From positions 186,001 through 250,000 of the forward strand of contig NZ_FWFT01000003.1 in the NCBI RefSeq assembly GCF_900172275.1: a stretch of DNA of 64,000 bases, read 5' to 3'. Below the pieces are notes generated by a model. The model was not told the origin of the DNA, did not search any database, and saw only the letters and a list, made by a program, of their open reading frames with translations. Made by a program: the position numbers and the translations under genes. This document shows positions 22,985-58,788 of this stretch, piece by piece (the first letter of the stretch is position 1; every line of letters starts with the position of its first letter). The stretch is from Pseudooctadecabacter jejudonensis (GTDB lineage Bacteria; Pseudomonadota; Alphaproteobacteria; Rhodobacterales; Rhodobacteraceae).

Positions 22985-23012
22985 TGGACCTGTCGCGGTT
23001 TGATGCCGCTCC
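22985..23012 (+). repeat. Left terminal inverted repeat of IS
   Basis: It begins TGGACCTGTCGCGG and matches the reverse complement of 24226-24253 at 23 of 28 positions. Confidence 0.8.
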
Positions 23013-23047
23013 TTTGATAGCATTTACTGCAATAAAGGAGACGAACT

Positions 23048-40560: not shown

Positions 40561-40596
40561 AAAACTCACTTCCCATAGCTGAGTTTTATTTTTGGA
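40561..40596. terminator. Terminator hairpin at end of STAND gene
   Basis: AAAACTCA and TGAGTTTT form an 8-bp stem around an 11-base loop, with ATTTTTGG on the plus side and TTTTGG on the minus side. It lies at the stop codon of the minus-strand STAND gene and could end transcription from both directions. Confidence 0.55.
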
Positions 40597-43500
40597 CGTA
40601 GTGTTGAGGAATAACTAGGGCAACCGACAGCCATTTACGCTGCGCTTCACGCGGGAGGTCTACAAATTTCTCTGTCAACGAGCTGCCCAATATCTCCTCG
40701 ATCTTCTGTATGTCCAACGGATCATCGAGGACTTCATCCAATTTCGCGTCGGAAATCTCCATTAAGTCGTGTGACCTCATCATTCCTTTTTGGTTGGAAG
40801 CCTCGTCTTCAGCTTTCTTGATCGCCTTCCGTAACTCATATGCCCATTCTCTGCGATCTTTTTCCGAAAGATCATCAAAAATCAGTCCCTTTTGTTCATT
40901 GAGCACGTCAGTCAGCTTTTCGACGAAAGAGGGGTCCGCAAGGTCCGCATCTATTTTGCGATTTATCCTATGACTTTCACCCAACATTGACGTAAACTCA
41001 GCTGCGCCTTTTATCTGATGCTCGTGAGTCAAACTAGCTAACCCATCTGGGAAGTTCTCGCGATCTATTCGCGCGTCCATATCTTCGCGAAATCCATCGA
41101 CTTTCAGGTACTCTTCAGCAAGGTAGAGAGCCACTGGGTCGCTGGTTGGATCATACTCTTCTGTCTTAACGCAGTACCAGCGCATATGCGCATTACGCGT
41201 AACATTAAATTTCTCCTCAGCGTCACGTAAATCGGAACAATCCTCACCTAAAGCTTCAATACGCGGTATATGTGCCCACCAGCCACCAGCAATACACTCG
41301 TGAGCTGCTTGCATTGCACCCGAGAAAGAAGAAGTTCCAAGTGCTAACTCAGCATCCAGAACTGTTAGTTCCGGGTTAACCCCATGAAGAGAGTGAGCAA
41401 CCATCAAGTCGTGAGCCGCCTTGCGTTGTTTTTTTGCCTCATGCCTGTCGCCGGCGGATAAGGCGATACGAGAACGCAAAAGTTCCGCAGCACAGGCATA
41501 GATTGGCATTGGACCACGGAGAGCCATTGCGGCCAATTCGTCCAGCGCGTGATAGGCTCGCTCTAGTTCTCCTGCGAGTGCCCCAGCCGATGCTACTGTC
41601 AAGAGACCACGAGGAAGTTTATGTTCAGCGTTTGCTACGCGAAAAAGCTCAAGAGCTTCTTCGGCAAGATCAAGAGGTGCCTGATCAAGTGTCTTTCCAG
41701 AAAATAGAGCTGATTTGGCTCTCAGGAGAACTATGTCGGCATTTTCTTCGAGACCTTGCGGAGACGATGATACCAAGAGTTGCCGGAGTTCGGTCAAAGC
41801 AGCAATCTCTCTGTATCTCGCTTTTGCAAAAAGCAAATCAGTGACTGCCGAATCTTTTGACCACGAAGACCAGAAGACCCAAGGTGCGGTTGTAGGTCGG
41901 ATTTCTTCTGCATTACTTAGGGCAGAATAAAATGCCTTTTCAGCGGCGCGCAAATTTCCCATCGCTAATGCTGCCGCACAAACGGACTCTTGTGCTGAGG
42001 TTCTCTTGCTGAGAACCATGACGCGTGAAGATTCGACTATTGTATCTATCTGACATTTTTCTGAATTGGCAACAGCATCAGCGGCGGCCATTTCTGCACC
42101 GTTTTCCCCCTCCAAATTTCCGAGCAGCAATAGCACATCAGCCAGATTAGTGGCGTTAATTGTTGCTTCACCCCACTCTCCAAGTTCCTGAAATAAGACC
42201 ATAGCCTTCCGTTGAGGAACTTCTGAATCTTCAAGTCTCCCAAGCTTTTTCATGCGAAGAGCAACAGCGTTAGTTAGGAAACCCCTGTCATATGGGGAGA
42301 GGTTTCTGCTAGGTTCGTCAAACCCGCCTTCAAAAAATGCAGATAGAGTTGCAAGCTCTTGCCCGTGAAGACCAAGTACCTCGGATGCATAATTTCGACC
42401 CTGCCGAACTCTTGGGTCAAATACTTCATTTAGGGCTTCGCTTTGACGCCCGGCCAAACAACCGTGGCGAATTGCCAAGAATAAATCTCGCATCCCAATT
42501 TCATCTTTTGGTAGCAATGCGCGTAAAGCTCTGTCCCATTGAGGTCCATCAATTAGCTCTGATGCGGCCACAATTTCGTCCGAAGAAGCTCTTTGCATAG
42601 TCCTTGTAATTGCCCCAGAGGCATAAAGAGGAACTTTCCCGGCGCTCATCATCTCCTTTAAGGTGCCTTGCTGAAGTGGAAACCGTGAACAAGCGAGAAG
42701 CACGCCGTACACTAACGGGTTTCGGAACTCCAATGGCAGAGTCACTCCGTTCGGTCCCGCGGCACTATATCGGTAGTGATCATATAGCTTTCTATGTGCA
42801 GACTTGAACGTCGCTTCATCCACATCAGCCAAGCGTAACGCAAAGTACTCCCGTACAAGCGGGTGGCAATCGATATCACTGCGCTGAAGCGGGACTCGTG
42901 GGTCGGCAGCGAACACGAGCCCTTGTCGGCGTAGAGATTGTAGTGCCTCGGCGAGAGATTGATTGCTCATAGCCGTCGCGATGCCGAGGACACCAGGCAG
43001 AGGAGGACCAGCTCGCAAAGCCTCAACGTCGGTCCATCGCATGGGGCGATCAAAAAGGCCTAGAAAAAAAAGTACCGCCAAACGCTCCTGATCTTTCCTC
43101 GGATTTTCAACTTCGTTGATCCGACGGGCGAGCGCTACCTCTATAGCTTGCATCACACGAAACGGATCGCGATCTCGATCTCCCCCCAGGTTAATCACCT
43201 GAGGAACCTGACTAAATCGATCTGCAACCCCACCGTGAAACTCACACAGGTACCCAGCTACATGATTTAACGCCAGCGCATGCCCTTTGAGAGCACAAGC
43301 AACTTGCACGATGTTCATAGCTTCTCGCCAAGGCATTGCAGGAAGCTGTTCAGTAGCTTTGGGTGTGTAGTCTGGAGGGAGCTTAGCAACCTCGCTCTTA
43401 GGAAACGAAGACCTGATGGGTAAGTCGTACTCTTCGGGTGGATAATTCGGTTCCACCCCAAAGGCTACACCGTCTTCAATCTCACGTGAGTGGCGCAGGA

Positions 43501-44488
43501 ATGAAATTGCGTCCATCAAAGGTATGGGGCGCAACGCTGAACGATACATTTTGGTTGTTTCTTCAGCTTGGATAAGATCGCTTACCCTCAGTCGTGTCGT
43601 GATAATTGTGAGCCCCGATGCGCCATGTGCAAGACTCTGGAGCAGAGCCTTCAAACCGAGATCTCTGAGCGCCCCTTCTGCAGCATGCTCGGTACCGCTG
43701 GGGTATTGCAAAGGTTCCAGCCCGTCTAGTACTAATAGCACACGGCGCTGGCTGACTAACTTTGCTAATTCCACTCCTTTTTTCCAATCACTAAGACCCG
43801 GATAAACGACCGTCCCATCTTCATTTTTCTTGCCACGAATTATCTCTTTCTGGCGTCGGCAAATATCCTCTTCGCTCGTCGTGGCCTCAACAGGAAAGCT
43901 CTTCTCGGCAACTAAGTGTTCATAGCCAAAAAATACTAATGCCTCTTCAAGAAATTCATTACCGTTGGCTTGTCGGCGTTCATCAGCCCCTTGGCTAAAA
44001 AAGCTCCAAAAGAATATTGAATCCAAGCCGGAAGCAGGGCCTTTATCGAGTAATTTTTGCTCAAACGCCTTTACGAGCGCGGTTTTGCCAGCACCACCAA
44101 TAGCATCTAGAGCCACGATAGCTAACTCATCATCATTCCAGGCATTCTCTAAATCGGCAATCTCTTTGTCTCGCCCAAATAAGCGCGATACAGCTGCAAA
44201 TGGAATAGAATTGCCACCGGTGGATGGGCTTCTCTTAACCTCAGGCCAACGCAAAGCACGTGGAATATCGTCAGGGTTGATCTCAAGGGCTAGCGCGACG
44301 TTACGAACAGTATTTTGTGTAATTTTTGGGATCTTCCCGTTCTCAATCTGAGATACATACCCTTTTCGGGTCGAATTCGAGAATGCCTCAGCGGCAAGAG
44401 CCTCCAAGCTCCAGCCTTTGGCAATCCGACGCTCTCGGACCAGCTCTCCGAACTTCTTAACGTCGCTTCTGCCATCAATCGCTGTCAT
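40586..44488 (-). CDS. HTH-STAND ATPase with C-terminal helical repeats
   Basis: A 1300-aa protein. Residues 10-75 form an XRE HTH (FGELVRERRIAKGWSLEALA, YVSQIENGKIP). A nucleotide-binding STAND (NB-ARC/NACHT-like) module follows with Walker A in DAIGGAGKTALVKAF (129-143) and Walker B in RRVLLVLDGLEPL near 260. The remaining ~800 residues are helical, with TPR-like spacing. ATG 44488 was chosen because AAGGAG precedes it. STAND proteins act as signal-responsive switches, many in phage defence; an HTH instead of an effector nuclease suggests transcriptional output or autoregulation. It stands alone on the minus strand and is AT-rich relative to the window. Confidence 0.8.
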   Translation of the reverse strand: MTAIDGRSDVKKFGELVRERRIAKGWSLEALAAEAFSNSTRKGYVSQIENGKIPKITQNTVRNVALALEINPDDIPRALRWPEVKRSPSTGGNSIPFAAVSRLFGRDKEIADLENAWNDDELAIVALDAIGGAGKTALVKAFEQKLLDKGPASGLDSIFFWSFFSQGADERRQANGNEFLEEALVFFGYEHLVAEKSFPVEATTSEEDICRRQKEIIRGKKNEDGTVVYPGLSDWKKGVELAKLVSQRRVLLVLDGLEPLQYPSGTEHAAEGALRDLGLKALLQSLAHGASGLTIITTRLRVSDLIQAEETTKMYRSALRPIPLMDAISFLRHSREIEDGVAFGVEPNYPPEEYDLPIRSSFPKSEVAKLPPDYTPKATEQLPAMPWREAMNIVQVACALKGHALALNHVAGYLCEFHGGVADRFSQVPQVINLGGDRDRDPFRVMQAIEVALARRINEVENPRKDQERLAVLFFLGLFDRPMRWTDVEALRAGPPLPGVLGIATAMSNQSLAEALQSLRRQGLVFAADPRVPLQRSDIDCHPLVREYFALRLADVDEATFKSAHRKLYDHYRYSAAGPNGVTLPLEFRNPLVYGVLLACSRFPLQQGTLKEMMSAGKVPLYASGAITRTMQRASSDEIVAASELIDGPQWDRALRALLPKDEIGMRDLFLAIRHGCLAGRQSEALNEVFDPRVRQGRNYASEVLGLHGQELATLSAFFEGGFDEPSRNLSPYDRGFLTNAVALRMKKLGRLEDSEVPQRKAMVLFQELGEWGEATINATNLADVLLLLGNLEGENGAEMAAADAVANSEKCQIDTIVESSRVMVLSKRTSAQESVCAAALAMGNLRAAEKAFYSALSNAEEIRPTTAPWVFWSSWSKDSAVTDLLFAKARYREIAALTELRQLLVSSSPQGLEENADIVLLRAKSALFSGKTLDQAPLDLAEEALELFRVANAEHKLPRGLLTVASAGALAGELERAYHALDELAAMALRGPMPIYACAAELLRSRIALSAGDRHEAKKQRKAAHDLMVAHSLHGVNPELTVLDAELALGTSSFSGAMQAAHECIAGGWWAHIPRIEALGEDCSDLRDAEEKFNVTRNAHMRWYCVKTEEYDPTSDPVALYLAEEYLKVDGFREDMDARIDRENFPDGLASLTHEHQIKGAAEFTSMLGESHRINRKIDADLADPSFVEKLTDVLNEQKGLIFDDLSEKDRREWAYELRKAIKKAEDEASNQKGMMRSHDLMEISDAKLDEVLDDPLDIQKIEEILGSSLTEKFVDLPREAQRKWLSVALVIPQHYVQK

Positions 44489-44628
44489 CAGTTCAAGACT
44501 CCTTAAAAGTAAGGTTTCAGACCCCTGTAACCGTGATGAAACGACTGATTGTTCGAAACCAGCCAAAACACGTTCAGTCGACACGTTAACCAAAGCTGGG
44601 CCCAGCTCAACATCCGAAAGGTAAATAG

Positions 44629-44876: not shown

Positions 44877-45109
44877 TAGAAATTTCGATGAAACTGTCGC
44901 TTCGTCGCTGTCCGGCGCGCCGCTCCGTCGAACGATCCGAACGCCCATGATGTACAACATAACAAAATACAAATTTTCCGCGCCTGTACCCTACCAACTT
45001 CAGATCCATGGTAATCAGAAAACGGTCGCCCTCCCCATCAGGTGGCAACATAACAAAAACAGCTCTCCGGTAGGAAAGCGTTATGTTTCAATCATTTGGT
45101 GGAGAACGG

Positions 45110-45679
45110 ATGAAACAGGCAAAGGTGTTATCTTCTGAGGAACTGAAGCGCGTGATGGCCATCTGCGCAAGCATGCAGAACGGCAAGCGCAACAGGTTGA
45201 TGCTCATGCTGTCCCACTACGCTGGCATGCGCGTGGGCGAGATCGCCTCGCTCAAATGGGCCGATGTGCTGGATCGTGAGCACAAGCCCAAGGCGATGTT
45301 CTACCTGAAAGCGGAGAACACAAAAGCCAAGGAAGCGCGCCAGGTGCATCTGAACGCTAAGCTGCAGAAGGAGCTTTCAACCTACTGGGCGCAACTGGAT
45401 CGCTGGAGGGCACCTGATCGGCCTGTGATCGAGTCCCAAAAGGGTGGACACTTCACGGCCAACAGCATGGTCCAAGCTTTTGCACGCGTGTTTGATGCTG
45501 CTGGGATCGAGGATGCGTCCTCACACAGTGGGCGACGATGGTTTATTACGCGCATGGCGCATGCTGGTATATCACCAAAGGTGATCATGGAACTTGCTGG
45601 ACATAAACAGCTGACCACCACGCAACGCTACATTGATGTGTCGGATGAACAAAAGCGCAGCGCGGTGGAAGTGCTATGA
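45110..45679 (+). CDS. Minimal tyrosine recombinase (catalytic domain only)
   Basis: A 189-aa protein consisting only of the recombinase catalytic domain: AGMRVGEIASLKW (Arg I), a beta hairpin with Lys, SHSGRRWFIT (His-x-x-Arg), LAGHKQLTTTQRYI (His and Tyr nucleophile). The core-binding N-terminal domain of usual 300-400-aa integrases is absent, as in FimB/FimE-type switches. ATG 45110 follows GGTGGAG. It ends three bases before the convergent small gene. It might act on inversion or resolution sites nearby. Confidence 0.85.
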   Translation: MKQAKVLSSEELKRVMAICASMQNGKRNRLMLMLSHYAGMRVGEIASLKWADVLDREHKPKAMFYLKAENTKAKEARQVHLNAKLQKELSTYWAQLDRWRAPDRPVIESQKGGHFTANSMVQAFARVFDAAGIEDASSHSGRRWFITRMAHAGISPKVIMELAGHKQLTTTQRYIDVSDEQKRSAVEVL

Positions 45680-45681
45680 CT

Positions 45682-46116
45682 TTACCTGGATCGACCGTGT
45701 TTGAGGCGTACCGCGACAAAGCCCCGTTTCAAAGCTTCACGTATTTGAGCCTTTGAGTGCCTGTGGAAACAGAACTCGATGTTCTCCAGATTGGGTTGGC
45801 CAATCATGTTCCAATCCACATGCAGGTTGCCAATGTACTTTGTGTTTCTAGGCACAGAACCAGCGCATCTGTCATACCAATGCATATGCCAACGTCTCAC
45901 CCAGTGCCGGGGACGTCGAATGTCCTTAGGGGGTTCGCCACAACATTCGAAATACAAGTTTCCACCAAACTTGAAACCAATGTGGTTTGATGACTGCCCG
46001 GCCAGCCACGCAAAGACCCAGTCGCCTTCTATTCCCAGCCATTTTTGAAAGCGTCTTAACCGATAGGTTGCGAAGAATTGGCTTTGGCCAAAGCCTGTTA
46101 AATCTACTTCTCGCAT
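45682..46116 (-). CDS. Uncharacterised 144-aa protein
   Basis: I do not recognise it. The sequence is rich in Trp, Phe, His and Arg (RRWHMHWYDRC, FCFHRHSKAQIREALKRG) and has four Cys. No membrane helix or signal is seen. ATG 46116 was chosen over 46194 since AAGGAG precedes it. Upstream, 106 bases away, is a 27-bp palindrome shared in sequence with the promoter of the queuosine-type operon, and the GT4-like gene is divergent from it, so co-regulation with that system is likely. Confidence 0.55.
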   Translation of the reverse strand: MREVDLTGFGQSQFFATYRLRRFQKWLGIEGDWVFAWLAGQSSNHIGFKFGGNLYFECCGEPPKDIRRPRHWVRRWHMHWYDRCAGSVPRNTKYIGNLHVDWNMIGQPNLENIEFCFHRHSKAQIREALKRGFVAVRLKHGRSR

Positions 46117-46221
46117 TGAAATTTCTCCTTGTTCAATTGTCTTGAATCTGACGCCTTTCCAAAATGCAGTCATTATTCCTGTGACTGTTTTCAATAAAAT
46201 ATTTGCGACGTCGGCCTGTGA

Positions 46222-46248
46222 GGAAAACTTGATTTAATCAAGTTTTCC
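46222..46248. promoter_or_regulatory. Shared palindromic operator, copy 1
   Basis: A perfect 27-bp palindrome centred on 46235, core CTTGATTTAATCAAG with AAAA/TTTT and GG/CC arms. It lies between the divergent 144-aa and GT4-like genes. Its inner 23 bp recur exactly at 52388-52410. Spacing in the TTGAT/ATCAA half-sites is 3, not 4, so it is not a canonical FNR site. Confidence 0.7.
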
Positions 46249-46353
46249 GTGAGCTCGAGTCTTACGCCCTCCAAGATCAAGACCCCGGCGAAGATTGGTG
46301 TGACTCCAAGCAAATATCGTTTCGACGAGCATTTGTGCCGCTACGCTTTCTGC

Positions 46354-47484
46354 ATGACACAGCATCACATCTATTTTCTCATCTCGAACCAACACTTCGT
46401 TCCAACTGGCGGGATCGGTTCATTCTTCCGAGGCTTCCAGCGGATGGCAAACCACTTTGGGTGGCATGTCACCGTAATCATGGACGCCGAGCCGTACAAA
46501 GCCGCGCAGGCAATGAAAGAGGCTGCTCAGAAACAAGGCAGTTTCATCATTCCAAGCCAGCCCGTGAAGTATTCAGGGCATAACCCCGACAATAGCCGAT
46601 ACTCAAAAGAAGTACCCAACCATTTCCGCGTCCAAAACTTCAAGAGCGCGTTGTGTAAGGCGCTGGAGGTTGAGCCTCCAACACATCTATTGATCAATAC
46701 GCCTGAGGCGGGTTTGGCCGTGCTGGAGATGGGGTTACATGAACAAACCCCAACCACCTTTTACACCCACCACGAAAACCTGGTGCTGAACCCAATCCCG
46801 AAGAGCAGCAAATTCGGGCCAAGCTATATGGAAATGCTGTTAAGGATCGTCGGGACACCCGGGATCACCACGGCCACCCAAAGCGACTACAACGTCGAGC
46901 GCATGAAACACCTGGAGCTTTCTGCTCCGCCAGTTGTGCTTCCAATGCCAATCCCTGATCCACAACTGCTGCAGCCGTACCATGGAGAACGGAAAGGAGT
47001 TCTGTTCATCGGAAGACATGAGCCACGCAAACAGCCTGCAGTGTTCGCTCAAAAGGTTGCACAAGCGGGGCTCCCCGCAAAAGTCCTCACTCGACAGAAT
47101 AGTGAACAGAAGTTCACGAAGACTTTCAATAAGCATGGCATCACAGATTATGAAATGAAATCCGAGATCACCGGCCAAGAAAAGGCCGACTTCATCCGGT
47201 CTGCGCGGATAGCGTTCCATCCTGCAAAGCTTGAGTCCTATGGGTTTTCAGCGATGGAAACTTTGGCAGCAGGACTGCCGACTTTGCTGGTTCACGAGTA
47301 TGGCTGGTGGCAAGCTTTCATCGAAGAAGGCGTTCAGATCACACCTGTCCGTGACGCGCAAAATATGCTGCGTGAATTGTATGAGCGTCCTTTGCAAACT
47401 GCTGCCAACCATGCTGTGCAACAGGAGCAGCAGACTTTTGCTATTTGGGATCAATATCTGAACGCTGCTCATCTTCAAGACTAG
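46354..47484 (+). CDS. GT4-like glycosyltransferase
   Basis: A 376-aa GT-B-fold enzyme. The N-terminus HIYFLISNQHFVPTGGIGSF resembles a GT4 acceptor domain with its Gly-rich loop, and the C-terminal donor domain has GVLFIGRHEPRKQP and KLESYGFSAMETLAAGLPTLL, an exact EX7E motif. The start is uncertain: the frame opens at GTG 46249, but ATG 46354 fits the family fold; neither has a strong Shine-Dalgarno. It converges with, and overlaps by 44 bases, the 585-aa gene of the VUT/TGT operon, and its promoter region carries the same palindrome as that operon. Confidence 0.75.
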   Translation: MTQHHIYFLISNQHFVPTGGIGSFFRGFQRMANHFGWHVTVIMDAEPYKAAQAMKEAAQKQGSFIIPSQPVKYSGHNPDNSRYSKEVPNHFRVQNFKSALCKALEVEPPTHLLINTPEAGLAVLEMGLHEQTPTTFYTHHENLVLNPIPKSSKFGPSYMEMLLRIVGTPGITTATQSDYNVERMKHLELSAPPVVLPMPIPDPQLLQPYHGERKGVLFIGRHEPRKQPAVFAQKVAQAGLPAKVLTRQNSEQKFTKTFNKHGITDYEMKSEITGQEKADFIRSARIAFHPAKLESYGFSAMETLAAGLPTLLVHEYGWWQAFIEEGVQITPVRDAQNMLRELYERPLQTAANHAVQQEQQTFAIWDQYLNAAHLQD

Positions 47485-49198
47485 GCGCTGGCAACGCTGC
47501 AGGAGCGACGAACATATCAGTGTTTTCGACGAAGCCTCCTGCGAGCCCCACAATTAATGGTAGCGTCATCTTGCAAGGGCCGGTCGGCAATTCGCAGTTC
47601 AACTCAATTCCAAAGGGCGCACCTGACATGGAAAGAAGCTTCCCCTCAAACTTCATGCCGTAATCAACGCCGAGGCTGATCACGCTTTCCAGCTGGCGGG
47701 TTTGAACAAGCCAGTTAGAGCCAAGCGGCATCTCAATTTGCGGCGTGGAGGTGATTTTTCCCAGCTTTTGTTTTTCGTGAGGATTGTCAGGGAAGTGAAG
47801 GTACAGATACCCATTGTCTTCCACAACATTGAGAAGCGTTGGGAACCGTCGTTTTGAGTTTCGTGGCAATGACTTTTTGAAGTCTTCCCGCCAGCCACTC
47901 AGCGCCATCAAAGTACCCTTGGTCAAAGCAAAACCATACTCTGGTGTCGCGTCGGTTTTGAGCAGCCTATACCCGTTCCTGTCCGGTGCTACACTGGGAA
48001 AGGCATACTTCATTGCGCCACCGTCTGAAGACGTAAGATGAGATAGCTTCGAAGTATGTTCGTCCTCCCATTCAAGTTGGCGCAAGAAATCAGAGGCAAA
48101 GTTAAGAATGTCATCTGCTGCCATGCGCAAAACCCGTGCTCTTTGCTTAAACGCGTCCCATGGGATGTGGGCTTCCAGAGCAATCATCGATGGTAGGATG
48201 GTCCCGTTTTCTACGAGCGTCGGCAGGTTGCCATCTTGCTTCTCTAGCCAGAGCACCTGCTTTGCTTTTTCGATGTTGTTGCCGGTGACTTTGGAGCCTT
48301 TTTGGGCTTCTGCTCGGCCCAACTGCCGATCTCTCAGCACTTGCACAACTTCATCTTTGCTTTCCTCGCCTGACAGCTCCAACGTGGACTGCATCGAAGT
48401 CATTGCTTTAAGTTGAGCAACCACATTTTCTGCATCAGGTTGAATGCGTTTGAAAACATCGCAGATTACAAAGAACGCGTAGAGTTTCTTTTTGGTCAAC
48501 CGCCGCTCTGTACGATCCGTGATGGACGGAACAAGGCTGATCAAGGCGCGTTCAAAGGATGCTTGGGGGCCAACGGGGAGAAACCCTACAACCTCCGCGC
48601 CATTTTCCGTTTGCCGAACGACAGCATTGGCATAGCCGTGAACCGAGTGCGGTTTCATCGCATCTAGTTGCAAGCCGGTTACGGAACCAAGAGACTGCGC
48701 ATCCAACACTTGTTTGGCCTGTTCAAACTTCGCAGAGGCCGCATCTTCGGTTCTGCTATCACCGCTTTTTTTCTCCACAGCCAAGGCTTTAGTGTAAAGG
48801 GTATCAAGTGTTTCACTTCCAGCGAACGCATTATGCAAGTCTTCGACAGTCCATTCATCCTCTTGCGCTTGCTTCAAGACTTTGCGGTATTTTGACTTGC
48901 TGTCATCGCGTGCGTTGGGAAATGCGAGACTTACAAGCTCGTGAAAATCATTGGTTTTTTGTTTGGCACTCATCGATTTGGTCTTCTGCCCTATGAACAG
49001 CGTGAGCATGTCTACCTCTTTGAGCTCAAGGCCAAGCTTATAGGTGGCAACCAAGGCTTGATGAAGGCGGTTATGATGGCCCTTGAGCGCCTTTTCTGCT
49101 TTCGCAGATAGCCTCTGAATCGCTTTGAGCTCCGGATCAAATTCCGCCAGTTTCTTGCTGGAGTTTGATCCAACGACGGCAAGTGCATTTTTTTTCAT
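47441..49198 (-). CDS. Uncharacterised 585-aa protein in queuosine-type cluster
   Basis: I do not recognise this protein. The N-terminal ~150 residues are helical and Lys/Glu-rich (LSAKAEKALKGHHNRLHQAL). The middle (200-400) has mixed helices including TERRLTKKKLYAFFVICDVF. The C-terminal 150 residues are strand-rich (WLVQTRQLESVISLGVDYG, ELNCELPTGPCKMTLPLIVG), faintly clamp-like. No membrane segment. It starts three bases after the TGT-like gene stop and so is the last gene of the VUT-GT-TGT operon. A role as nucleic-acid-binding partner of the TGT-like enzyme is plausible but inferred from position alone. Confidence 0.65.
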   Translation of the reverse strand: MKKNALAVVGSNSSKKLAEFDPELKAIQRLSAKAEKALKGHHNRLHQALVATYKLGLELKEVDMLTLFIGQKTKSMSAKQKTNDFHELVSLAFPNARDDSKSKYRKVLKQAQEDEWTVEDLHNAFAGSETLDTLYTKALAVEKKSGDSRTEDAASAKFEQAKQVLDAQSLGSVTGLQLDAMKPHSVHGYANAVVRQTENGAEVVGFLPVGPQASFERALISLVPSITDRTERRLTKKKLYAFFVICDVFKRIQPDAENVVAQLKAMTSMQSTLELSGEESKDEVVQVLRDRQLGRAEAQKGSKVTGNNIEKAKQVLWLEKQDGNLPTLVENGTILPSMIALEAHIPWDAFKQRARVLRMAADDILNFASDFLRQLEWEDEHTSKLSHLTSSDGGAMKYAFPSVAPDRNGYRLLKTDATPEYGFALTKGTLMALSGWREDFKKSLPRNSKRRFPTLLNVVEDNGYLYLHFPDNPHEKQKLGKITSTPQIEMPLGSNWLVQTRQLESVISLGVDYGMKFEGKLLSMSGAPFGIELNCELPTGPCKMTLPLIVGLAGGFVENTDMFVAPAALPAPSLEDEQRSDIDPK

Positions 49199-49201
49199 GT
49201 C

Positions 49202-50728
49202 TCATACCTTTGCTAGTGCAAGTGCGTTCAACTCGCGCTCAGCATCTTGAATGAATTGCATAGGGGTCTCGGAGGTGAATACGCCGTCAAGCAAAGCAGG
49301 AAGGCACATCAACTCCTTGGGGCGTTCCAAGATATTGCGGTCGTCAAGCGTGCGATATGCACGCCTGAAACCCTCAAAGAACGCATGTGTGTTGTGGTGG
49401 ATCAGCAAAACCTGCTGGAGCTTGCGAGTTTGCTCACCGGTTAAGCCCACCCAAGGTTTGTTGACGAAATCATCAAGCGTCAAATGCACGCCCAAGGCAG
49501 TTTGAGTCCGTTTGAAGTCAAATGATCGCTCGCCTTTTTCGCGAATTTCATTCAATGGGCGGTGATCCCCATCATGCGCGTCTTGCCGCGTGCGCGCCGA
49601 ACGAAAACTCCAAACCTCAGGGTCCATGTCTACCCCGGTCACAGCTTCATAACCGTTGCGCATGACATCCACCGGGCTGCCAGAGTCGAACGACAGTTGG
49701 ATGTCTTTTGCATCGGTATAGCTGCGCAGCGCGCGTTGCAGCATGCTCAAGCCAACACCTACCCTGAGAGTGGAGACACCCAAGAAGTGCAGCCACTGGC
49801 CTTGTCGCAAATGCCCAAGATCGCGCATTTCAATGAGCCGACGGCATGTCATCGCAAGCTGCGAATGGTGCTTGCCTGCGAACGTCCAGCCATCGAAATG
49901 GAACTGCAGCATGCGGTCAAACCAAAATTTGCTTTCGCGCTCGTTTCGGCCCTGAATGATGTTGAGCACCTTGGTTGCGCCCACTTTGCGATGCATTCGA
50001 TAATAGCGATTGTTGCGGACGGTTTGGAACAAACAGGCCAAAAAACCTGTATCGAACCCAAGCGTCTTCGAGAGCTTTTCCATCTCGACACCTTCACGCA
50101 TAAGACGCTGGACATGGATATCCACGCCGCCGCTGGCGATTGTTGCAAGCGGAAAATCCATCACCATAGAATGAGTGGCCACATCTTCCAGCCAACGCAG
50201 CATCCGCTCTACTGTTGGCATGCCTTGGAATGCGATGGTGCCTTGCTGGATTTGAAATCCGCCGCTGTCGCCAATCAAAGTGACGCGGTCATCATGCTGG
50301 CCGTTGGTTAACCAATTGCGTCGTTTTGCTAGCTTTGGCGTCTTGGCTGCCTGACCACCGCTGTAGAGAACCCATGGATAGAAACACAGCTTAGAGCTTG
50401 GGTTGGTGAATTGCAGGTCTTCTGCTGTGAAACCAAATCGGCTTGGCAGGACCAATCCTTCAAGCGCATCAACATACGTGCTGCTGAGCGCAGGCATATA
50501 GTAGGCAACATTGTCGTATGCGCCGACCTCTGTGTAATCCTGGCCTTGAGAAAGCTTGCGTTGTTTGCTGGGGTCACGCGGGAACATATCCTCAACGTCT
50601 TTGTCCATTCCAGCGTCACCCAAGCAGGTGCGGGGCTCATTGCCCATCATCCCAAAGTGCTGTTCATCAACCGCATCTGACGTATCAGCGATCATAACGG
50701 GCAGGTTTTTATCTGAGGAGGCTGGCAT
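49202..50728 (-). CDS. Divergent TGT/DpdA-like transglycosylase
   Basis: A 508-aa protein with the tRNA-guanine transglycosylase plan in order: DSGGFQ (154-159), an Asp in VMDFPLAT (191), IIQG (257-260), FAG (283-285), HFLGVS (314-319), the nucleophile region FDSGSP (347-352) and the terminal HHNTHAF (444-450). The canonical zinc CxCxxC before that last His is absent. DpdA proteins are TGT paralogues that put 7-deazaguanines into DNA, and this divergence fits such a role better than housekeeping tRNA modification. ATG 50728 follows GGAG and overlaps the upstream glycosyltransferase gene by 20 bases. Confidence 0.75.
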   Translation of the reverse strand: MPASSDKNLPVMIADTSDAVDEQHFGMMGNEPRTCLGDAGMDKDVEDMFPRDPSKQRKLSQGQDYTEVGAYDNVAYYMPALSSTYVDALEGLVLPSRFGFTAEDLQFTNPSSKLCFYPWVLYSGGQAAKTPKLAKRRNWLTNGQHDDRVTLIGDSGGFQIQQGTIAFQGMPTVERMLRWLEDVATHSMVMDFPLATIASGGVDIHVQRLMREGVEMEKLSKTLGFDTGFLACLFQTVRNNRYYRMHRKVGATKVLNIIQGRNERESKFWFDRMLQFHFDGWTFAGKHHSQLAMTCRRLIEMRDLGHLRQGQWLHFLGVSTLRVGVGLSMLQRALRSYTDAKDIQLSFDSGSPVDVMRNGYEAVTGVDMDPEVWSFRSARTRQDAHDGDHRPLNEIREKGERSFDFKRTQTALGVHLTLDDFVNKPWVGLTGEQTRKLQQVLLIHHNTHAFFEGFRRAYRTLDDRNILERPKELMCLPALLDGVFTSETPMQFIQDAERELNALALAKV

Positions 50729-51767
50729 AGAGTTTGTCTCCATTAAAATAACGCCCTGCGACCTGCTTAGCCATCTTGGCCAGTCGCAGTTTGCTCTTCT
50801 TTTCAATTGCTTGGTGAATGAACCCAGCGATGCTGTCGGCATTTGCGTAAGCATCGTCCAAAGACATGGTCCACTCAGATGGATAGGTGAACCCCGGATA
50901 CATTTTTGGATACGACAAGCGATACGGCACGATTGGAACTGCGCCTGCCATCAGACCTTCAAATACACCGATGCCCAAGGTTTCCTGCTTGCTGGCCGAA
51001 AACACAGCCAATGAGCGTGCGAGCTCTTTGTGGTATTCGGCTTTGCTTAGCTGTTTTTCTTGAGCAAAGATGATCCGATATTCGGACAGCCTTTGTTGCA
51101 GCATCTTTAGAATTTCTGGTTGCTTTTCTAAAGCCAGACGATGCGGGAATAGGATGGTGTCCTTGTCAGCTGTATCTGCAAGCGGCTTGAGGATAGGCGT
51201 AAGATATTCCATCGGCCAACCAACAAATCGCGAAGTCTTTGGGTTCTCTGGTTTGATTTTGGTAAGGAACAGGTTTTCGTGATAGCGCCCTGCGAAATAA
51301 TTGCGTTCAGCAGCATCAAAAACCGCTCGTTCAAACGCATAGCTCCAGCTTTTGTTCTTTACGGCCTGGCCCAAAGCATCCCATCGGTCGTAGGAGCCAG
51401 AATGCCACATGACTTGGATCTCGAGGCGTAGATTGAGCAAGTCCGACATATAACGGACATTGATCACTCCAGGATGCCAAGCATCGGTGAACAATACGCG
51501 ATCTTTCCGACCGACTTGGCCAGACTGAACCAAGGCTGCAAACTTGGCGACTTGATATGATTTGTAGATGTTGGTGTCGGCAAAGTTGAGGAACTTTCCC
51601 GCCTCTGGTGCCTTTGACTTCGCTGGACCAGAAACCAGCTTCACTTGCCACTTTCCGAGCTCTCGAGATGCGATTGCTGCTTTAAGCTGCCGAGGAAGGT
51701 GCTCTCGCCATTCTCCCGTATATCTTTGCTCGTGAGCTTCGATATCAAATATCCAGATCGTCGACAT
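50709..51767 (-). CDS. Glycosyltransferase resembling queuosine mannosyltransferase
   Basis: A 352-aa GT-B-type enzyme. The C-terminal half has LFPHRLALEKQPE, then SASKQETLGIGVFEGLMAG (EX7E from Glu262 to Glu270) and PIVPYRLSYPKMYPGF. The order and spacing of these parts recall GTDC1/QTMAN, the tRNA-queuosine alpha-mannosyltransferase, as I remember it. The start is directly after the VUT stop (TGA-ATG) and the end overlaps the TGT-like gene, so transporter, transferase and transglycosylase are translationally linked. It could glycosylate a 7-deazaguanine or another acceptor; the QTMAN relation needs a profile search. Confidence 0.65.
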   Translation of the reverse strand: MSTIWIFDIEAHEQRYTGEWREHLPRQLKAAIASRELGKWQVKLVSGPAKSKAPEAGKFLNFADTNIYKSYQVAKFAALVQSGQVGRKDRVLFTDAWHPGVINVRYMSDLLNLRLEIQVMWHSGSYDRWDALGQAVKNKSWSYAFERAVFDAAERNYFAGRYHENLFLTKIKPENPKTSRFVGWPMEYLTPILKPLADTADKDTILFPHRLALEKQPEILKMLQQRLSEYRIIFAQEKQLSKAEYHKELARSLAVFSASKQETLGIGVFEGLMAGAVPIVPYRLSYPKMYPGFTYPSEWTMSLDDAYANADSIAGFIHQAIEKKSKLRLAKMAKQVAGRYFNGDKLYASLLR

Positions 51768-52259
51768 TCAAGCGAGCTCCTCGAGCGGAGCACGGTTGCG
51801 TAGAACCATCCAGAACCCCAACGCCCCAAGCATCTTGGCAGCACTGACCAAAGCAACAGCAGTCCAGTCGAAGAAGCCAACCATAAGGAGGAAAACAATA
51901 GTATCCACGGGCACGGCCACGGCGGACGAAAACAAAATACGTTGGGACAGCGGCTTACGTGTGAACGTATAGACAGCCCAATCGATGGCTTCGGAGATAA
52001 GGAATGCCGTCACACTGGCCAACGCCACAACCGGGGACGACATGAAATAGCTGATGCAGCCCGCCACCACCATAGCGATGACGACCCAGTGTCCAATCTC
52101 CCGTTGTGCAAAATCTCGGAAAACAAACACAAAGCCAACGACGAGCATCACAGGCGGGAACATGGTCCCCAGAACTGGCACCATCGGCACCACGACAAAC
52201 AGCCAATTGATGGCCACCACCGCGCCGATATAGGCGGTTGTCCAAAACCCTTTGGGCAT
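51768..52259 (-). CDS. Queuosine precursor transporter (VUT/YhhQ family)
   Basis: A 163-aa membrane protein with about five to six helices: VVAINWLFVVV, VLGTMFPPVMLVVGFVFVFRDFAQREIG, then VVIAMVVAGCISYFMSSPVVALASV and AVPVDTIVFLLMVGFFDW. The FRDFAQREIG and FLISEAIDW patterns are typical of YhhQ/QueT-type VUT transporters, which import preQ0/preQ1. ATG 52259 has a perfect GGAGGAA Shine-Dalgarno. It is the first gene of the operon followed by the QTMAN-like transferase and TGT-like enzyme, and it lies 129 bases from the shared palindrome. Confidence 0.8.
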   Translation of the reverse strand: MPKGFWTTAYIGAVVAINWLFVVVPMVPVLGTMFPPVMLVVGFVFVFRDFAQREIGHWVVIAMVVAGCISYFMSSPVVALASVTAFLISEAIDWAVYTFTRKPLSQRILFSSAVAVPVDTIVFLLMVGFFDWTAVALVSAAKMLGALGFWMVLRNRAPLEELA

Positions 52260-52387
52260 AAGTTCCTCCACAGAAAATTGTTTGTGGTGTGAACCTGTCA
52301 GAGTTGATCTGCTTGATGTTGTGCACATCTGACCCAAAGGGCTGCAAAAACTGCCCAAACTGAGGGCTTTGACGGAGATGAGAGGTA

Positions 52388-52410
52388 AAAACTTGATTTA
52401 ATCAAGTTTT
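52388..52410. promoter_or_regulatory. Shared palindromic operator, copy 2
   Basis: A perfect 23-bp palindrome centred on 52399, identical to the inner part of 46222-46248. It is upstream of the VUT operon. With copy 1 it marks both ends of the convergent five-gene cluster; a common regulator or recombinase site is the simplest explanation. Confidence 0.7.
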
Positions 52411-52489
52411 CCCGCTCATTCAGTCAATGATTTCATACGCCTAGTCGCGCCCCGAACCGACTTGGCAGCATGGGCAGTAAGTTGGGTTT

Positions 52490-54061
52490 TTAGGCCGATG
52501 CAAATTCAATGGCTGCCAAATTCGGCTTCAGAGTGAACTTCGCGTCTAGCATCCGTGCAATCTGGCGCACGATCTCAAGCCCAAAGCCCGGTTGACCATT
52601 TGGACCTTCAACACAATTGATTTCATCAACCACATGAACCGCGATGCGGGTTTCATCAATTTCCGCTCGAACCGTAACAGATAAACCATCTTCACTCATG
52701 CGCACGGCATTTTGAACCAAGTTGGAAACGGCCTCCCAAACCAAATTCGCATCCGATGTCATCTGATGGTTCGTTGGTATCACGTGCAACGTGACGCCAC
52801 GCAGATTGGCTTCCGGCTCAAACGTTTGCAGCACTTGGTCGAAAACACGCTGAAGCGCAAACTCTTCTGAGATGATATCGATCCGACCTGCCTCTCGCTT
52901 GGCATACGCAAGCACCTTGTCGATGAACCCAGATGCTGTTTGCCCAATGGCACGAGCCTGTTCCAGTGGTGCGCCAGCAGGAGTGTCTTTATGTTCGATC
53001 ACCAGCCCATCCAACATCATGTTCACGGAATGCATGGGTTGGCGCAGGTCATGGCCTATTGAACGTATGAGATGTTGCTGGAACTCAAAGGCATCGCGCA
53101 GGTCTTTGGTTTGGTTGGCGACTTCTTCTTCAAGGTCAGCTTCATGCTGTTTGATGGCATTAAAAGCAACTTCACGATCTGAAACAGCCCCGCCAATCAT
53201 CAAGGTTGAGATCGCCGTCAGCAGCAAAAGCACTTGCAGGGAGATACGCTCCCCCTCAAATCCAAACCAGTTGGCGGCAGGAGGCGTTAACAGCGCAGTT
53301 AACACAATTGCCGTTGCGGCAGATGGGAGACCGCCTCGTACTGCAAAAATCACAGGTGGCAGCAAGATCAAATAGAACAGCGAGTCCAAATATGTGCCTT
53401 GGGATGGAGCCCAAAACGCAATGAACATCGCCAACAGGATCGTCACCAACTGAAACGCTATGGCTCGCCACTCGGGTAGAACTGCCTGTACTCTACGGCC
53501 AAAGAACCACATCAGGAACGGAACCAGTATTGGCAGTGGGATCAATGTCCCAATGGCATCGCCTACGGCCCATGGTAGCAGTATTTCCCAGGCAACGGGC
53601 CACGGGAAGTTGCCCACAGTGGCGTGAAGCGAGACCCCGCTAAGAGCTCCCAGTAGAGCTGCAACCAGTGCAATCGCAATTAACTGAAGTTGGTTCTTCA
53701 AGTCACGGATCGGTAAGCTCACCGCAATCAAGTGACGTGCGATCAAACCCGCTCCAGTGTAAATCACGTAGAGGCGAAGCCCGTGCAAGATCGGATCCCT
53801 ATAGTTGGTGAACTCAACGCCAAGCACTCCACAAACAGCCGGGATCGCCAGCAGCAGGTTTGCCACCAACGGGGCCAAAAGGAACTTTTGGGGAGCCGTC
53901 AATGCGACAGCCAAAGTGACGCCTGCAGGCAAGAACCAAAGACTCGCGTAGGTTTCAAAGAAGTCGAAAACACCAGCAGAAACATATGCCGCGAGCCACA
54001 GCAGGACGATCGCTGCAAATCGCAGCATATCTCTGATCACCAAATCAAACTTCTTTTCCAT
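52490..54061 (-). CDS. MASE1-type sensor histidine kinase
   Basis: A 523-aa membrane kinase. About eight hydrophobic segments in residues 12-290 (FAAIVLLWLAAYVSAGVF, SLWFLPAGVTLAVAL) form a MASE1-like sensor. A coiled coil (AIKQHEADLEEEVANQTKDL) leads to the HisKA H-box SIGHDLRQPMHSVNM and a HATPase domain with NLVQNAVRM and GFGLEIVRQIA. ATG 54061 was chosen over 54130 because the extra residues would extend into the divergent promoter. It is divergent from a LuxR-type response regulator, 52 bases away, which is its likely partner. Confidence 0.85.
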   Translation of the reverse strand: MEKKFDLVIRDMLRFAAIVLLWLAAYVSAGVFDFFETYASLWFLPAGVTLAVALTAPQKFLLAPLVANLLLAIPAVCGVLGVEFTNYRDPILHGLRLYVIYTGAGLIARHLIAVSLPIRDLKNQLQLIAIALVAALLGALSGVSLHATVGNFPWPVAWEILLPWAVGDAIGTLIPLPILVPFLMWFFGRRVQAVLPEWRAIAFQLVTILLAMFIAFWAPSQGTYLDSLFYLILLPPVIFAVRGGLPSAATAIVLTALLTPPAANWFGFEGERISLQVLLLLTAISTLMIGGAVSDREVAFNAIKQHEADLEEEVANQTKDLRDAFEFQQHLIRSIGHDLRQPMHSVNMMLDGLVIEHKDTPAGAPLEQARAIGQTASGFIDKVLAYAKREAGRIDIISEEFALQRVFDQVLQTFEPEANLRGVTLHVIPTNHQMTSDANLVWEAVSNLVQNAVRMSEDGLSVTVRAEIDETRIAVHVVDEINCVEGPNGQPGFGLEIVRQIARMLDAKFTLKPNLAAIEFASA

Positions 54062-54113
54062 ATCCGATTTCTGCGTGAAACTGCTCCTCACAATCAATAA
54101 GAGAAATTTACCG

Positions 54114-54722
54114 ATGAAACGCCTGCTCATTGCCGATGATCATCTTATGATTGGATCGGCGATGGTCTACCTGCTGAAGCAGCTGGACCCGTCGATCCAC
54201 ACAGTGTCAGTGGGTTCTGCAAAGGCTGCTCTCGAGACAGTGGCTGAAGGCAAGCCATTCGATCTGGTGCTGCTGGATTACGACATGCCCGGAACCAATG
54301 GGATCAAAGGCATGGGCCTAATCCACAAAGATCACCCAGAACAGACTGTCGGTATCATATCCGGCAGAACAGAACCTCATTTGGTGAAAGCTGCCATTGC
54401 GGCGGGTGCGGTCGGCTGGCTGCCAAAATCAATGTCTGATGAACCGCTGCTCCACGCGTTACGCATGATGGCTGCTGGTGGGCAATTTGTGCCAACGGAC
54501 GTGCTAGCTGAGCTCAAATCCAACGATGACCGTTGGGACCTGTTCAGTGAGGCAGAACAACGCGTAGCCAAACAGTTGGCACAGGGTTTGTCGGACAAGG
54601 AGATTGCACTCAGTTTGGAGTTAGAACCCAAAACCATACGCAATCACGTTCGTAACATCCTTCGCAAGGCAGGTGCCGAGAGCAGAACCAAGTTTGCTCT
54701 GGCCTTTCACGAAAGCCGCTAA
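54114..54722 (+). CDS. LuxR/NarL-type response regulator
   Basis: A 202-aa response regulator. The receiver domain (1-120) has LLIADDH, the phosphorylated Asp in DLVLLDYDMPG, the Thr/Ser in GIISGRTEP and Lys in WLPKSM. The C-terminal GerE helix-turn-helix is SEAEQRVAKQLAQGLSDKEIALSLELEPKTIRNH split by the usual turn. It starts at ATG 54114 with AAGAGA upstream. Divergent to the MASE1 kinase, it likely forms a two-component system with it. Targets are unknown; the nearby palindromes are candidates. Confidence 0.9.
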   Translation: MKRLLIADDHLMIGSAMVYLLKQLDPSIHTVSVGSAKAALETVAEGKPFDLVLLDYDMPGTNGIKGMGLIHKDHPEQTVGIISGRTEPHLVKAAIAAGAVGWLPKSMSDEPLLHALRMMAAGGQFVPTDVLAELKSNDDRWDLFSEAEQRVAKQLAQGLSDKEIALSLELEPKTIRNHVRNILRKAGAESRTKFALAFHESR

Positions 54723-56499: not shown

Positions 56500-58788
56500 C
56501 TAGCTCAGTTCAAGTATGGACTTTGCGGCAAGCGCAGGTACTTCGCTAGGAAACCAACCGCTTGTTTCAGCTCGGACCATATTGTTTGCGAGCAGCTCGG
56601 CTAAAAGGGGCGGAAACGCATTTCCGACCTGAATGCACTGATCTTGACGAGCGCCGACAAACTCGATTTCATCCGGAAAAGTTTGAAGCCTTGCAGCCTC
56701 TCTGACTGTCAAAGATCTATTTAGCCAAGGATGCAAAGGAAACGCATTGTGGCCCGGAACCAACGTAATACTCGGAAGTTCTCGATGTAGTCTTCGAAAA
56801 ATATGGCTGAAATTCCGAATTTTTTTTGTTCTGTACCCAGCCTTGAGTTCTTCTGGAAGGGCATCAACGTCGAGTTTGCCACCTTCTGGGATCCTCTTGT
56901 AGCGGGCAATTTGTAGCGGTTTATGGTTCATGGGAACGTGATTGGTGTGCACATGATGGCTTTCGTCGCTAGCCAGATCTGTGATGAACTCTCCAACCTT
57001 GGCAAATGGCTTTTGCCAGTCCTTTGGGGTTTGAAAAAACTTCCTTTTTGGCCACGGTATTACATGTCCTGTTCGATTTGCTACTAGAACAAAACGTTTT
57101 CTATGTTGGGGGACACCATAATCGGCTGCGTCGATCACTCGGTGTTCGATTTGACCATACCCAACTTCGCGCAATCCATCGACAACTGCCTTTACAAATA
57201 AGCCATCGTTCATAGTCGCAAAACCGGCCACGTTTTCCATGACCACCCATCTTGGCTGGATGCGAGCAACTGTGTCAACAAACGCTAAAACAAGTCGGTT
57301 GCGAGGGTCGGCAGCTGCCGTTGACTCATCAACTTTCGCAAGCCTACGGCGACCAAAAACTGAGAACCCTTGGCAAGGTGGACCACCCACAACCGCAAAA
57401 GTCTCGCCGCCAGCGATAGAGGCCACCTCCTCCTGTATAAGTGGGTCAGAAATATCCCCGTGAACGAACGGCGTGTCGGGGAAGTTCTTCTTGTGCGCTT
57501 GCATCACTCGATCGTTGTTGTCTGAGGAGGCAATCGGAACTAATCCTGCTCGTTCGAAGCCAACACTGAAGCCGCCTGCGCCACAGAATAGATCAACGAA
57601 GGAGCGTTTCTGGCGCGCTTGGCCTTTGATGTTGGTCGTTACGTCCGCAACATTTACTTTCACTACTGGTATCAGTTTTCCGGATTGCTCCTGAACTCTG
57701 GCAGAGGATCCCTTCAGTGGGTGAATTCGGGACTTGATAGATTTTGCAAGCGCAAACGAAAGCAAGGGAGGAACAGCGTTGCCAGCCAAGATACACTGTC
57801 TTCGGCGGTCTCCTGAAAAAACATGGCCGTCGGGAAAACTCTGCAGCCTCGCGGCTTCTCTGGGTGTAAGGCTTCTATGCAGAACAGGGTGGATAGGCAG
57901 AGCATTGTTGCCAGGCACTATGGTCAAAGACGGCTTTGATCGATCAAGGCGCTTGTAAGTGTTTCCGAAATTTTTTCGCCGGATGTCTTCTGGGAGTTCT
58001 TCAGGAGGCGGTAGCATTCCGCCTTCAGGTATGAATTTATAGCGCCGCACCACCTTTTCCGAATGCCGCAGAGCCAGATGGTTAGGAAACTCCTCCCCTC
58101 TGTCCATTAAGTCGAGGATCGCATCTCCCACGGTCACAAATGGCTCAAGTCCATTTCCATGGGTAGCATCGGGAAAATCGTATTCCACCCTTTGATCCAA
58201 GAAGCCAACAAAGAAGGCCCGTTGACGGTGCTGCGGAACTCCAAAGGCTGCGGCATCAAGCACGCCAAAGTGCATTTTGTAGCCGATCTGCGAAAAGGCA
58301 CTCATAACGTGATCACGATACCTGCCGTTGTACTCGGTCGAAATTGCTCGAACATTTTCGACAAGCACGACTTGAGGACGCAAAGCTTTTGCAATTCGCA
58401 CAAACTCATTCACGAGGGTGTTTCTCGGATCCGCCGAATGACGAGTGCCTAACGTAGAAAACCCCTGACAAGGAGGACCTCCTATTATCACATCCGGCCT
58501 TACTCCTCCCAATGCCTCAACGATCGTTTCATTCGATACATTGCGGATATCATCGTGAATGAACGGCACCTTTGGCCAGTTAAGCGCAAAGGTTTCCGCG
58601 GCGGACTTTTCATTGTCCATGGCCGTAAGGACCCTGTATCCGGCTCTTTCAAATCCCAGGTCAAGTCCTCCACCGCCCGAAAAGAGGCTCAAGATCGTCG
58701 GAATGCTCTCCACCGTCCGAACGCGGCGCGAACGATCCACATTCGACTCGCTTTCTGGTACGGATGGGAAAATAGGGTTCTTGTTCAT
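56500..58788 (-). CDS. Tandem two-domain DNA cytosine-5 methyltransferase
   Basis: A 762-aa protein containing two complete C5-methyltransferase domains. Domain 1 (31-355) has LSLFSGGGGLDLGFERAG, GGPPCQGFS with the catalytic Cys107, ENV at 144-146 and the C-terminal GNAVPPLL. Domain 2 (396-740) has VDLFCGAGGFSVGFERAG, GGPPCQGFS with Cys472, ENV and GNAFPPLL. Most bacterial Dcm-like enzymes are 350-450 aa with one domain. ATG 58788 overlaps the upstream nuclease stop (ATGA). Two activities in one chain would suit an asymmetric recognition site. Confidence 0.9.
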   Translation of the reverse strand: MNKNPIFPSVPESESNVDRSRRVRTVESIPTILSLFSGGGGLDLGFERAGYRVLTAMDNEKSAAETFALNWPKVPFIHDDIRNVSNETIVEALGGVRPDVIIGGPPCQGFSTLGTRHSADPRNTLVNEFVRIAKALRPQVVLVENVRAISTEYNGRYRDHVMSAFSQIGYKMHFGVLDAAAFGVPQHRQRAFFVGFLDQRVEYDFPDATHGNGLEPFVTVGDAILDLMDRGEEFPNHLALRHSEKVVRRYKFIPEGGMLPPPEELPEDIRRKNFGNTYKRLDRSKPSLTIVPGNNALPIHPVLHRSLTPREAARLQSFPDGHVFSGDRRRQCILAGNAVPPLLSFALAKSIKSRIHPLKGSSARVQEQSGKLIPVVKVNVADVTTNIKGQARQKRSFVDLFCGAGGFSVGFERAGLVPIASSDNNDRVMQAHKKNFPDTPFVHGDISDPLIQEEVASIAGGETFAVVGGPPCQGFSVFGRRRLAKVDESTAAADPRNRLVLAFVDTVARIQPRWVVMENVAGFATMNDGLFVKAVVDGLREVGYGQIEHRVIDAADYGVPQHRKRFVLVANRTGHVIPWPKRKFFQTPKDWQKPFAKVGEFITDLASDESHHVHTNHVPMNHKPLQIARYKRIPEGGKLDVDALPEELKAGYRTKKIRNFSHIFRRLHRELPSITLVPGHNAFPLHPWLNRSLTVREAARLQTFPDEIEFVGARQDQCIQVGNAFPPLLAELLANNMVRAETSGWFPSEVPALAAKSILELS

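Follow-up and report, generated by a model that had tools for sequence, protein, structure and literature searches.

A candidate mobile module for writing glycosylated 7-deazaguanine into DNA, with counterparts in phages

Introduction

VUT proteins import preQ0 and preQ1, TGT inserts 7-deazaguanine in tRNA and DpdA in DNA, and QTMAN adds mannose to queuosine in tRNA. What would a bacterium make with a compact gene set in which relatives of these proteins stand together, and in which nucleic acid would the product lie? The question is raised by a locus of Pseudooctadecabacter jejudonensis within the stretch of 64,000 nucleotides analysed here (contig NZ_FWFT01000003.1, positions 186,001 to 250,000; hereafter the window), part of a host genome of 3.41 Mb in 15 contigs. 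The locus encodes a VUT/YhhQ-type transporter (VUT), a QTMAN-like glycosyltransferase (GTa), a TGT-fold transglycosylase (TGTL), a conserved partner protein (UNK585) and a second glycosyltransferase (GT4b). We put at roughly two in three the probability that these genes form a mobile, cell-encoded module writing glycosylated 7-deazaguanine into DNA. A sugar-bearing 7-deazaguanine is known in tRNA; our literature search, mostly of titles and abstracts and thus leaving room for a mention in full texts, found neither a report of such a base in DNA nor a paper linking a glycosyltransferase with DNA-borne 7-deazaguanine.

Four of the genes form a minus-strand operon in the order VUT (51768-52259; 163 aa from an ATG at about 52259, preceded by GGAGG), GTa (50709-51767; 352 aa), TGTL (49202-50728; 508 aa) and UNK585 (47441-49198; 585 aa), on which the plus-strand GT4b (about 46354-47484; 376 aa; PF00534, E 2.3e-6) converges. 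GTa begins directly after the VUT stop (51768/51767), the GTa and TGTL reading frames share 20 nt, a gap of 3 nt separates TGTL from UNK585, and the 3' ends of UNK585 and GT4b overlap by 44 nt. An earlier note made from the letters of the window had described just such an operon of stop-start junctions or overlaps, met by a converging GT4-like gene, and the gene map bears it out.

Results and Discussion

A transglycosylase family without the zinc motif

Fold comparison places TGTL among enzymes with the TIM-barrel fold of TGT, the solved structures that it matches being tRNA transglycosylases. D154, D191 and D348 are present in all 62 aligned TGTL members and Q259 in 59 of them; adopting roles from the Zymomonas TGT, we take these residues to be the catalytic Asp pair together with a substrate-binding Asp and Gln. 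They are colinear with the corresponding residues of the host's own TGT on hhalign comparison, a match that taken alone is weak (20%). The CxCxxC zinc motif, by contrast, occurs in none of the 62 members but in 28/28 reference TGTs (2 of 30 TGT loci having been dropped from that set), so that the earlier description of a TGT-plan enzyme lacking this site holds.

Family libraries have little to say of TGTL. No member of the 62 has a Pfam match at E ≤ 0.01, PF01702 included, and the window protein produces a single sub-cut-off Pfam row (E 0.085) which we took as chance. Searching PDB sequences with the TGTL profile returned only kainate-receptor rows (E ≥ 0.38), PADLOC gave no DpdA hit for TGTL of the window or of L101 (a cellular locus in genome G155), and no similarity to the DpdA of phage 9g was seen. 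A profile of the DpdA2 group (nt-1 DpdA2 plus two homologues) does match that of TGTL, at 94% and E 1e-7, and by this measure DpdA2 appears to be its nearest family. The match to TGT or DpdA on which the earlier note had made its reading depend was seen by fold for TGT and by profile for the DpdA2 group. TGTL itself probably represents a separate, longer family than DpdA/DpdA2 that Pfam does not hold. In a tree of 139 tips the TGTLs of the window, of Shimia ponticola (L002), of two Sulfitobacter loci (L003 and L004) and of L005 group together as a five-member clade (support 1.0), next to which stand those of phage Phosso and the viral loci L014 and L015 (support 0.947).

Two glycosyltransferases, one akin to QTMAN

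Compared using hhalign with a profile of bacterial QTMAN, built from PF12038 carriers, the GTa profile matches over its C-terminal catalytic half at 98.9% (E 2.7e-17). Single-sequence controls on the GTa profile separate two groups cleanly: 17/17 QTMAN sequences score 66-102 (E ≤ 1e-8), whereas 18/18 glycosyltransferases with strong PF00534 matches score 9-27 (E ≥ 0.0069), none of the 18 counting as a match (nine of the 27 loci L160-L186 were dropped from this set as offering no suitable reading frame, and L187-L189 were left out). The earlier recognition of a GT-B transferase recalling QTMAN is thus upheld, and in its catalytic half GTa is a homologue of QTMAN, not of GT4 enzymes at large. 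Since GTa has no match to QTMAN_N (PF12038) at E ≤ 1, we call it QTMAN-like and not QTMAN; it differs further in its setting, among phage replication and transglycosylase genes. The best hit of GTa in a PDB sequence search, a putative glycosyltransferase (E 0.18), was not used. GT4b falls between the two groups in the single-sequence test (45.4, E 1.3e-5), and by profile matches GTa at 94.2% (E 1.2e-7), the GT4 set at 59.8% and QTMAN at 36.5%.

Among the modules of the window, L002, L003 and L004, GTa is more variable than its neighbours. VUT proteins are 88-94% identical, TGTL 75-89%, UNK585 74-90% and GT4b 78-90%; GTa comes in three types only 55-58% identical, of which L002 and L004 share one (92%). 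In a tree of 126 tips the four cellular GTas form a single clade (support 1.0). Such variation would be expected if the sugar or the acceptor were under changing selection, a suggestion that derives from four loci. Were the proposed DNA mark real, so changeable a glycosyltransferase would point to an arms race fought with glycans on DNA.

Counterparts in phages

Searching phage records by tblastn detected TGTL in 13 and GTa in 19. The two genes are adjacent in phage Paride, and the genome of PA5oct also holds the pair. In Phosso they lie far apart, GTa being near FolE and QueE, with primase and helicase genes also near. In phages ACP17 and X1 the partners of GTa are QueE and a protein homologous to nt-1 DpdA2 (E 5e-51 and 8e-44, respectively), and in Vibrio phage 2.275.O TGTL lies beside QueF, VUT, QueC, FolE and QueE. 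In this last phage a 370-aa protein (L007 11582-12694), not a GTa homologue according to phmmer, adjoins TGTL in the place that the glycosyltransferase has in Paride.

The partnership was assessed quantitatively in IMG/VR, where the best 80 of 586 TGTL relatives and the best 80 of 369 GTa relatives yielded 69 and 77 distinct loci, samples that overlap in some contigs. Alignment queries were needed for these viral contigs, single-protein scans giving nothing for TGTL and one unrelated stretch for GTa. With length limits that were chosen after seeing the data, GTa is present in 29/29 distinct TGTL-seeded loci (16 kb or longer) and TGTL in 38/38 distinct GTa-seeded loci (14 kb or longer). Those same 38 loci contain the clamp family in 35 cases (a label from the annotation of the Phosso record, Pfam giving no clamp hit), DNA polymerase in 32, FolE and QueE in 31 each, and a VUT match in three. 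Without the limits the figures are 45/69 and 70/77, each of the seven GTa-seeded loci without TGTL being shorter than 9.5 kb. On these counts phages carry the pair of TGTL and GTa inside replication genes, mostly with FolE and QueE and only at times with a transporter. Were the proposed DNA mark real, a direct prediction would follow for the DNA of phages in culture, Paride and PA5oct among them.

Other genes recur in the viral loci. Two small families (L023 8762-9283, about 173 aa; L056 9308-9742, about 144 aa), whose representatives have no Pfam match at E ≤ 0.01, occur alongside TGTL in 50 and 48 of the 69 loci, respectively. An NAD-dependent epimerase (L031 14144-15091) and a DegT-type aminotransferase (L042 12845-13441) lie near the phage glycosyltransferases in 20 and 15 of the 69, and perhaps make the sugar donor.

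Import and supply of the base

The transporter assignment made in the earlier note fares differently in two libraries: VUT matches phrog_4899 at E 7.9e-29, but scores 26.4 bits against PF02592, under the cut-off of 27.2 (27.3 bits when its neighbours are included in the frame). The host genome was searched for TGT, QueA, VUT, QueF and QueC. A normal TGT, QueA and a second VUT gene were all found; QueF was not, nor was any QueC above cut-off, a sub-cut-off match covering profile positions 2-34 of 210 not being counted. Import by the module is plausible because the host thus retains TGT, QueA and a second VUT without QueF and QueC above cut-off. From this we infer a host that meets its needs with an imported preQ1-type base, and a module VUT that supplies TGTL. 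If so, the presence of a second importer in a bacterium seemingly unable to make 7-deazaguanine is explained: it would feed a DNA mark.

Bacterial distribution and defence setting

The set VUT, GTa, TGTL and UNK585 is kept together in L002, L003 and L004 as well as in the window, and GTa and TGTL remain paired in phages, so that the conservation on which the earlier note had staked its interpretation is observed. Conservation of the second glycosyltransferase is incomplete: L002 and L003 carry a full-length GT4b, while L004 retains only the last 273 aa of it. An alignment-based search detected TGTL in 2/385 genomes of the class, the window's own included; UNK585 was found in 2/380 genomes of the order, again counting its own.

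Restriction genes lie on both sides of the module. The two stretches concerned, 34600-37812 and 56500-60329 of the window, contain one type IIG restriction-methylation enzyme and one type II restriction enzyme, besides a protein both halves of which match cytosine methylases, an arrangement that reads as a defence island. In L101 TGTL has as neighbours a PbeC/DndD-like protein, whose match to PbeC reaches E 4e-284, and an ATPase that matches mad8, DndH and HerA and, weakly, DndE; these neighbours suggest a restriction partner for TGTL there. On the Azospirillum plasmid (L009), PADLOC matches to Hp1 and Hp2 are found nearby.

Proposed role and its alternatives

VUT would import a 7-deazaguanine base, most likely preQ1, a preQ1-type import being proposed because the host appears unable to make the base. 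TGTL would then swap guanine in DNA for the imported base through the aspartate chemistry of TGT, and GTa would transfer a sugar from a nucleotide sugar onto the 7-substituent of the inserted base. GT4b may extend or vary this sugar and UNK585 may provide target or DNA specificity. The mark would probably shield the DNA bearing it from restriction, serving either self-marking or the anti-restriction of a mobile island. DNA is favoured over RNA on account of the phage replication setting, the kinship with DpdA2 and the restriction setting in cells. Were this correct, queuosine-type sugar chemistry would also exist on DNA, together with a new transglycosylase family outside Pfam.

Several observations weigh against this proposal. 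QTMAN itself is a tRNA enzyme, UNK585 shows no likeness to known DNA-acting proteins, and GTa of the window (50709-51767) carries K288 where 47/48 aligned members have E. Cells rarely have the five-gene set: TGTL was detected in 3/390 genomes of the order, own genome included (one of the three, G125, is apparently the Shimia genome of L002). Neither QueC (three queries) nor QueF (one query) was found by phmmer within the available sequence of any of the 69 and 77 distinct viral loci, and the phage base may therefore not be preQ1. TGTL also occurs without GTa, both in the cellular DNA compared (the 5.1-kb contig L005, the Azospirillum plasmid L009 and L101) and in phages: in L014 and L015, the two misses among 38 viral TGTL loci with at least 6 kb downstream (GTa in the other 36), and within 21 kb around TGTL in Vibrio phage 2.275.O. 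Conversely, in the 20.7-kb locus L013 a distant relative of GTa lies next to sugar enzymes, and no transglycosylase match was seen there.

These solitary occurrences, of TGTL on the one hand and of the GTa relative in L013 on the other, are what would be expected if TGTL marked DNA with plain 7-deazaguanine as DpdA does and the glycosyltransferases acted elsewhere, for example on a surface glycan or a protein. The near-obligate reciprocal co-occurrence of TGTL and GTa in long phage loci and the QTMAN-specific similarity of GTa, which both tie this glycosyltransferase to 7-deazaguanine, nevertheless render this improbable. Modification of tRNA or another RNA, TGTL inserting the imported base and GTa glycosylating it as QTMAN does queuosine, would accord with the nearest relative of GTa being a tRNA enzyme and with the tRNA transglycosylases matched by the fold of TGTL. 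We consider it unlikely, however, given that the phage copies lie near DNA polymerase and clamp-family genes (in Phosso near primase and helicase), that DpdA2 is the nearest profile family, that the zinc motif of reference tRNA-TGTs is missing, that the window and L101 copies sit among DNA restriction genes and that the host already has a normal TGT. The product might also be a free metabolite. Huimycin is reportedly a glycosylated product of preQ0 type. A biosynthetic cluster for this pyrrolopyrimidine is in print (PMC7439116), but a TGT-fold base-exchange enzyme and a phage replication setting would be unexpected for such a pathway and none of the five module genes is an export gene, making a metabolite highly improbable.

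Beyond the module, and at slightly less than even odds, glycosylated 7-deazaguanine may be a widespread, unrecognised DNA hypermodification. Its core of two enzymes, a zinc-less TGT with a QTMAN-like glycosyltransferase, would belong to the replication modules of many phages and would have been turned in marine Rhodobacterales into a mobile, import-fed self-marking cassette whose glycosyltransferase is under diversifying selection, such that the sugar and not the base sets the DNA identity of a strain.

Comparison with known systems

The T4 glucosyltransferases belong to different GT families than GTa. By placing a sugar on hydroxymethylcytosine they act in counter-defence (PMC13216743), a parallel with the glycosylated DNA base proposed here although the base is a different one. 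For phages with DpdA and DpdA2, dPreQ0, dADG, dPreQ1 and dG+ have been measured, dPreQ0 being contained in the DNA of the DpdA2 phage nt-1 (PMC6884629), and a vibrio phage with QueF gave a mass consistent with dPreQ1 at about 15% of dG (PMC12028318). These systems (nt-1, 9g) share with ours the combination of a TGT-related enzyme and preQ0-pathway genes in phages; a QTMAN-like glycosyltransferase is, however, the standing partner here, and no word beginning with 'glycos' appears in the available text of PMC6884629. Further-modified 7-deazaguanines are mentioned in another paper, the accessible part of which has no occurrence of 'glycosyltransferase' (PMC12783734). In jumbo phage PA5oct, whose genome includes both TGTL and GTa, a system for deazaguanine synthesis and incorporation has been noted, and the report, so far as available, links no glycosyltransferase to it (PMC7824862).

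Among bacterial systems, the Dpd genomic island resembles the module in having a cell-borne TGT homologue for DNA marking (Thiaville 2016, cited after PMC12839542), but the module has a transporter and glycosyltransferases instead, and the Dpd models of one library (PADLOC), DpdB and DpdC included, gave no hit at E ≤ 1 among seven window proteins. BREX-related capture (BRC) systems are likewise bacterial defence gene sets with a TGT, the proposed part of which is to mark self DNA; unlike the module they have PglZ, a STAND NTPase and HerA/FtsK as their basis, with no 'glycosyltransferase' in the main text as available (PMC12839542).

The conserved partner UNK585

UNK585, which the earlier note had left without a recognised family, has no match above curated cut-offs in family library scans and is 74-80% identical between the window and L002-L004. 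A resemblance to sliding clamps, first seen by eye, was not supported: against 119 phage clamp-family sequences its scores (21.1 single, 22.6 profile) fall within those of six shuffles (12.1-24.5). The upstream neighbour of TGTL in L101 (8239-17001) is a 643-aa gene, whose score as a relative of UNK585, 20.0, likewise lies within those of eight shuffles (11.6-21.6). On the Azospirillum plasmid (L009 8544-13140) a recombinase homologue accompanies TGTL and a 560-aa gene; the score of UNK585 against the latter, 21.5, exceeds eight shuffles (12.3-17.5), but covers 17 residues only, at 0.7% probability, so that the two may or may not be related.

Module ends and neighbouring genes

The identical palindromes noted previously upstream of both transcription units were recovered as an exact 25-nt repeat containing AAAACTTGATTTAATCAAGTTTT, at 46224-46248 upstream of GT4b and 52388-52412 upstream of the VUT operon, bracketing the five genes. 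At up to two mismatches the 17-nt palindrome core has these two matches and none elsewhere in the window, 100 shuffles yielding 0.00 on average. L002 and L003 have the palindrome at both module ends and L004 at the transporter end only, one copy each in L003 and L004 containing one mismatch; no match is present in L009 or L101. The Azospirillum locus L009 has a distinct palindrome at 13120-13140 (18/21 self-complementary), of which a poor copy at 9153-9173 (16/21), just past the recombinase, is suggestive only.

The main block of DNA homology between the window and L002 runs from 46223 to 52411, that is from palindrome to palindrome, while two flanking elements form separate blocks. One is a short tyrosine recombinase (45083-45679, plus strand; PF00589, E 1.1e-28), 90-98% identical in L002 and L003 and with its homologue beside TGTL in Azospirillum. 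In L002 (12483-13074) the recombinase stop codon abuts the palindrome, and cargo seems to be swapped at the recombinase 3' end. The palindromes could be recombination sites at the ends of the module or, equally, operators. In the window (45083-46248) a 170-aa gene, 98% identical in L003, stands between recombinase and palindrome.

The other element is a MASE1 sensor histidine kinase (52490-54130, minus strand; MASE1, E 1.2e-7), a possible regulator, with its paired response regulator (54075-54722, plus strand; NarL/LuxR type by eye), both kept in L002-L004. We considered the pair as an old chromosomal landmark and rejected the idea: searching 60 other genomes with the kinase gave nothing above 51.5 bits, and the pair therefore probably travels with the module.

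At the L004 contig end, 127 bases match the other end of the same contig and window positions 22985-23111. Since these bases are a shared repeat of about 127 nt (window 22984-23111; L004 1-128 and 11809-11935), the repeat seems to be what breaks GT4b in L004, and it is perhaps an insertion sequence end. At 40586-44593 the window encodes a 1335-aa protein with an N-terminal control-protein-like match, which by eye only resembles a STAND NTPase.

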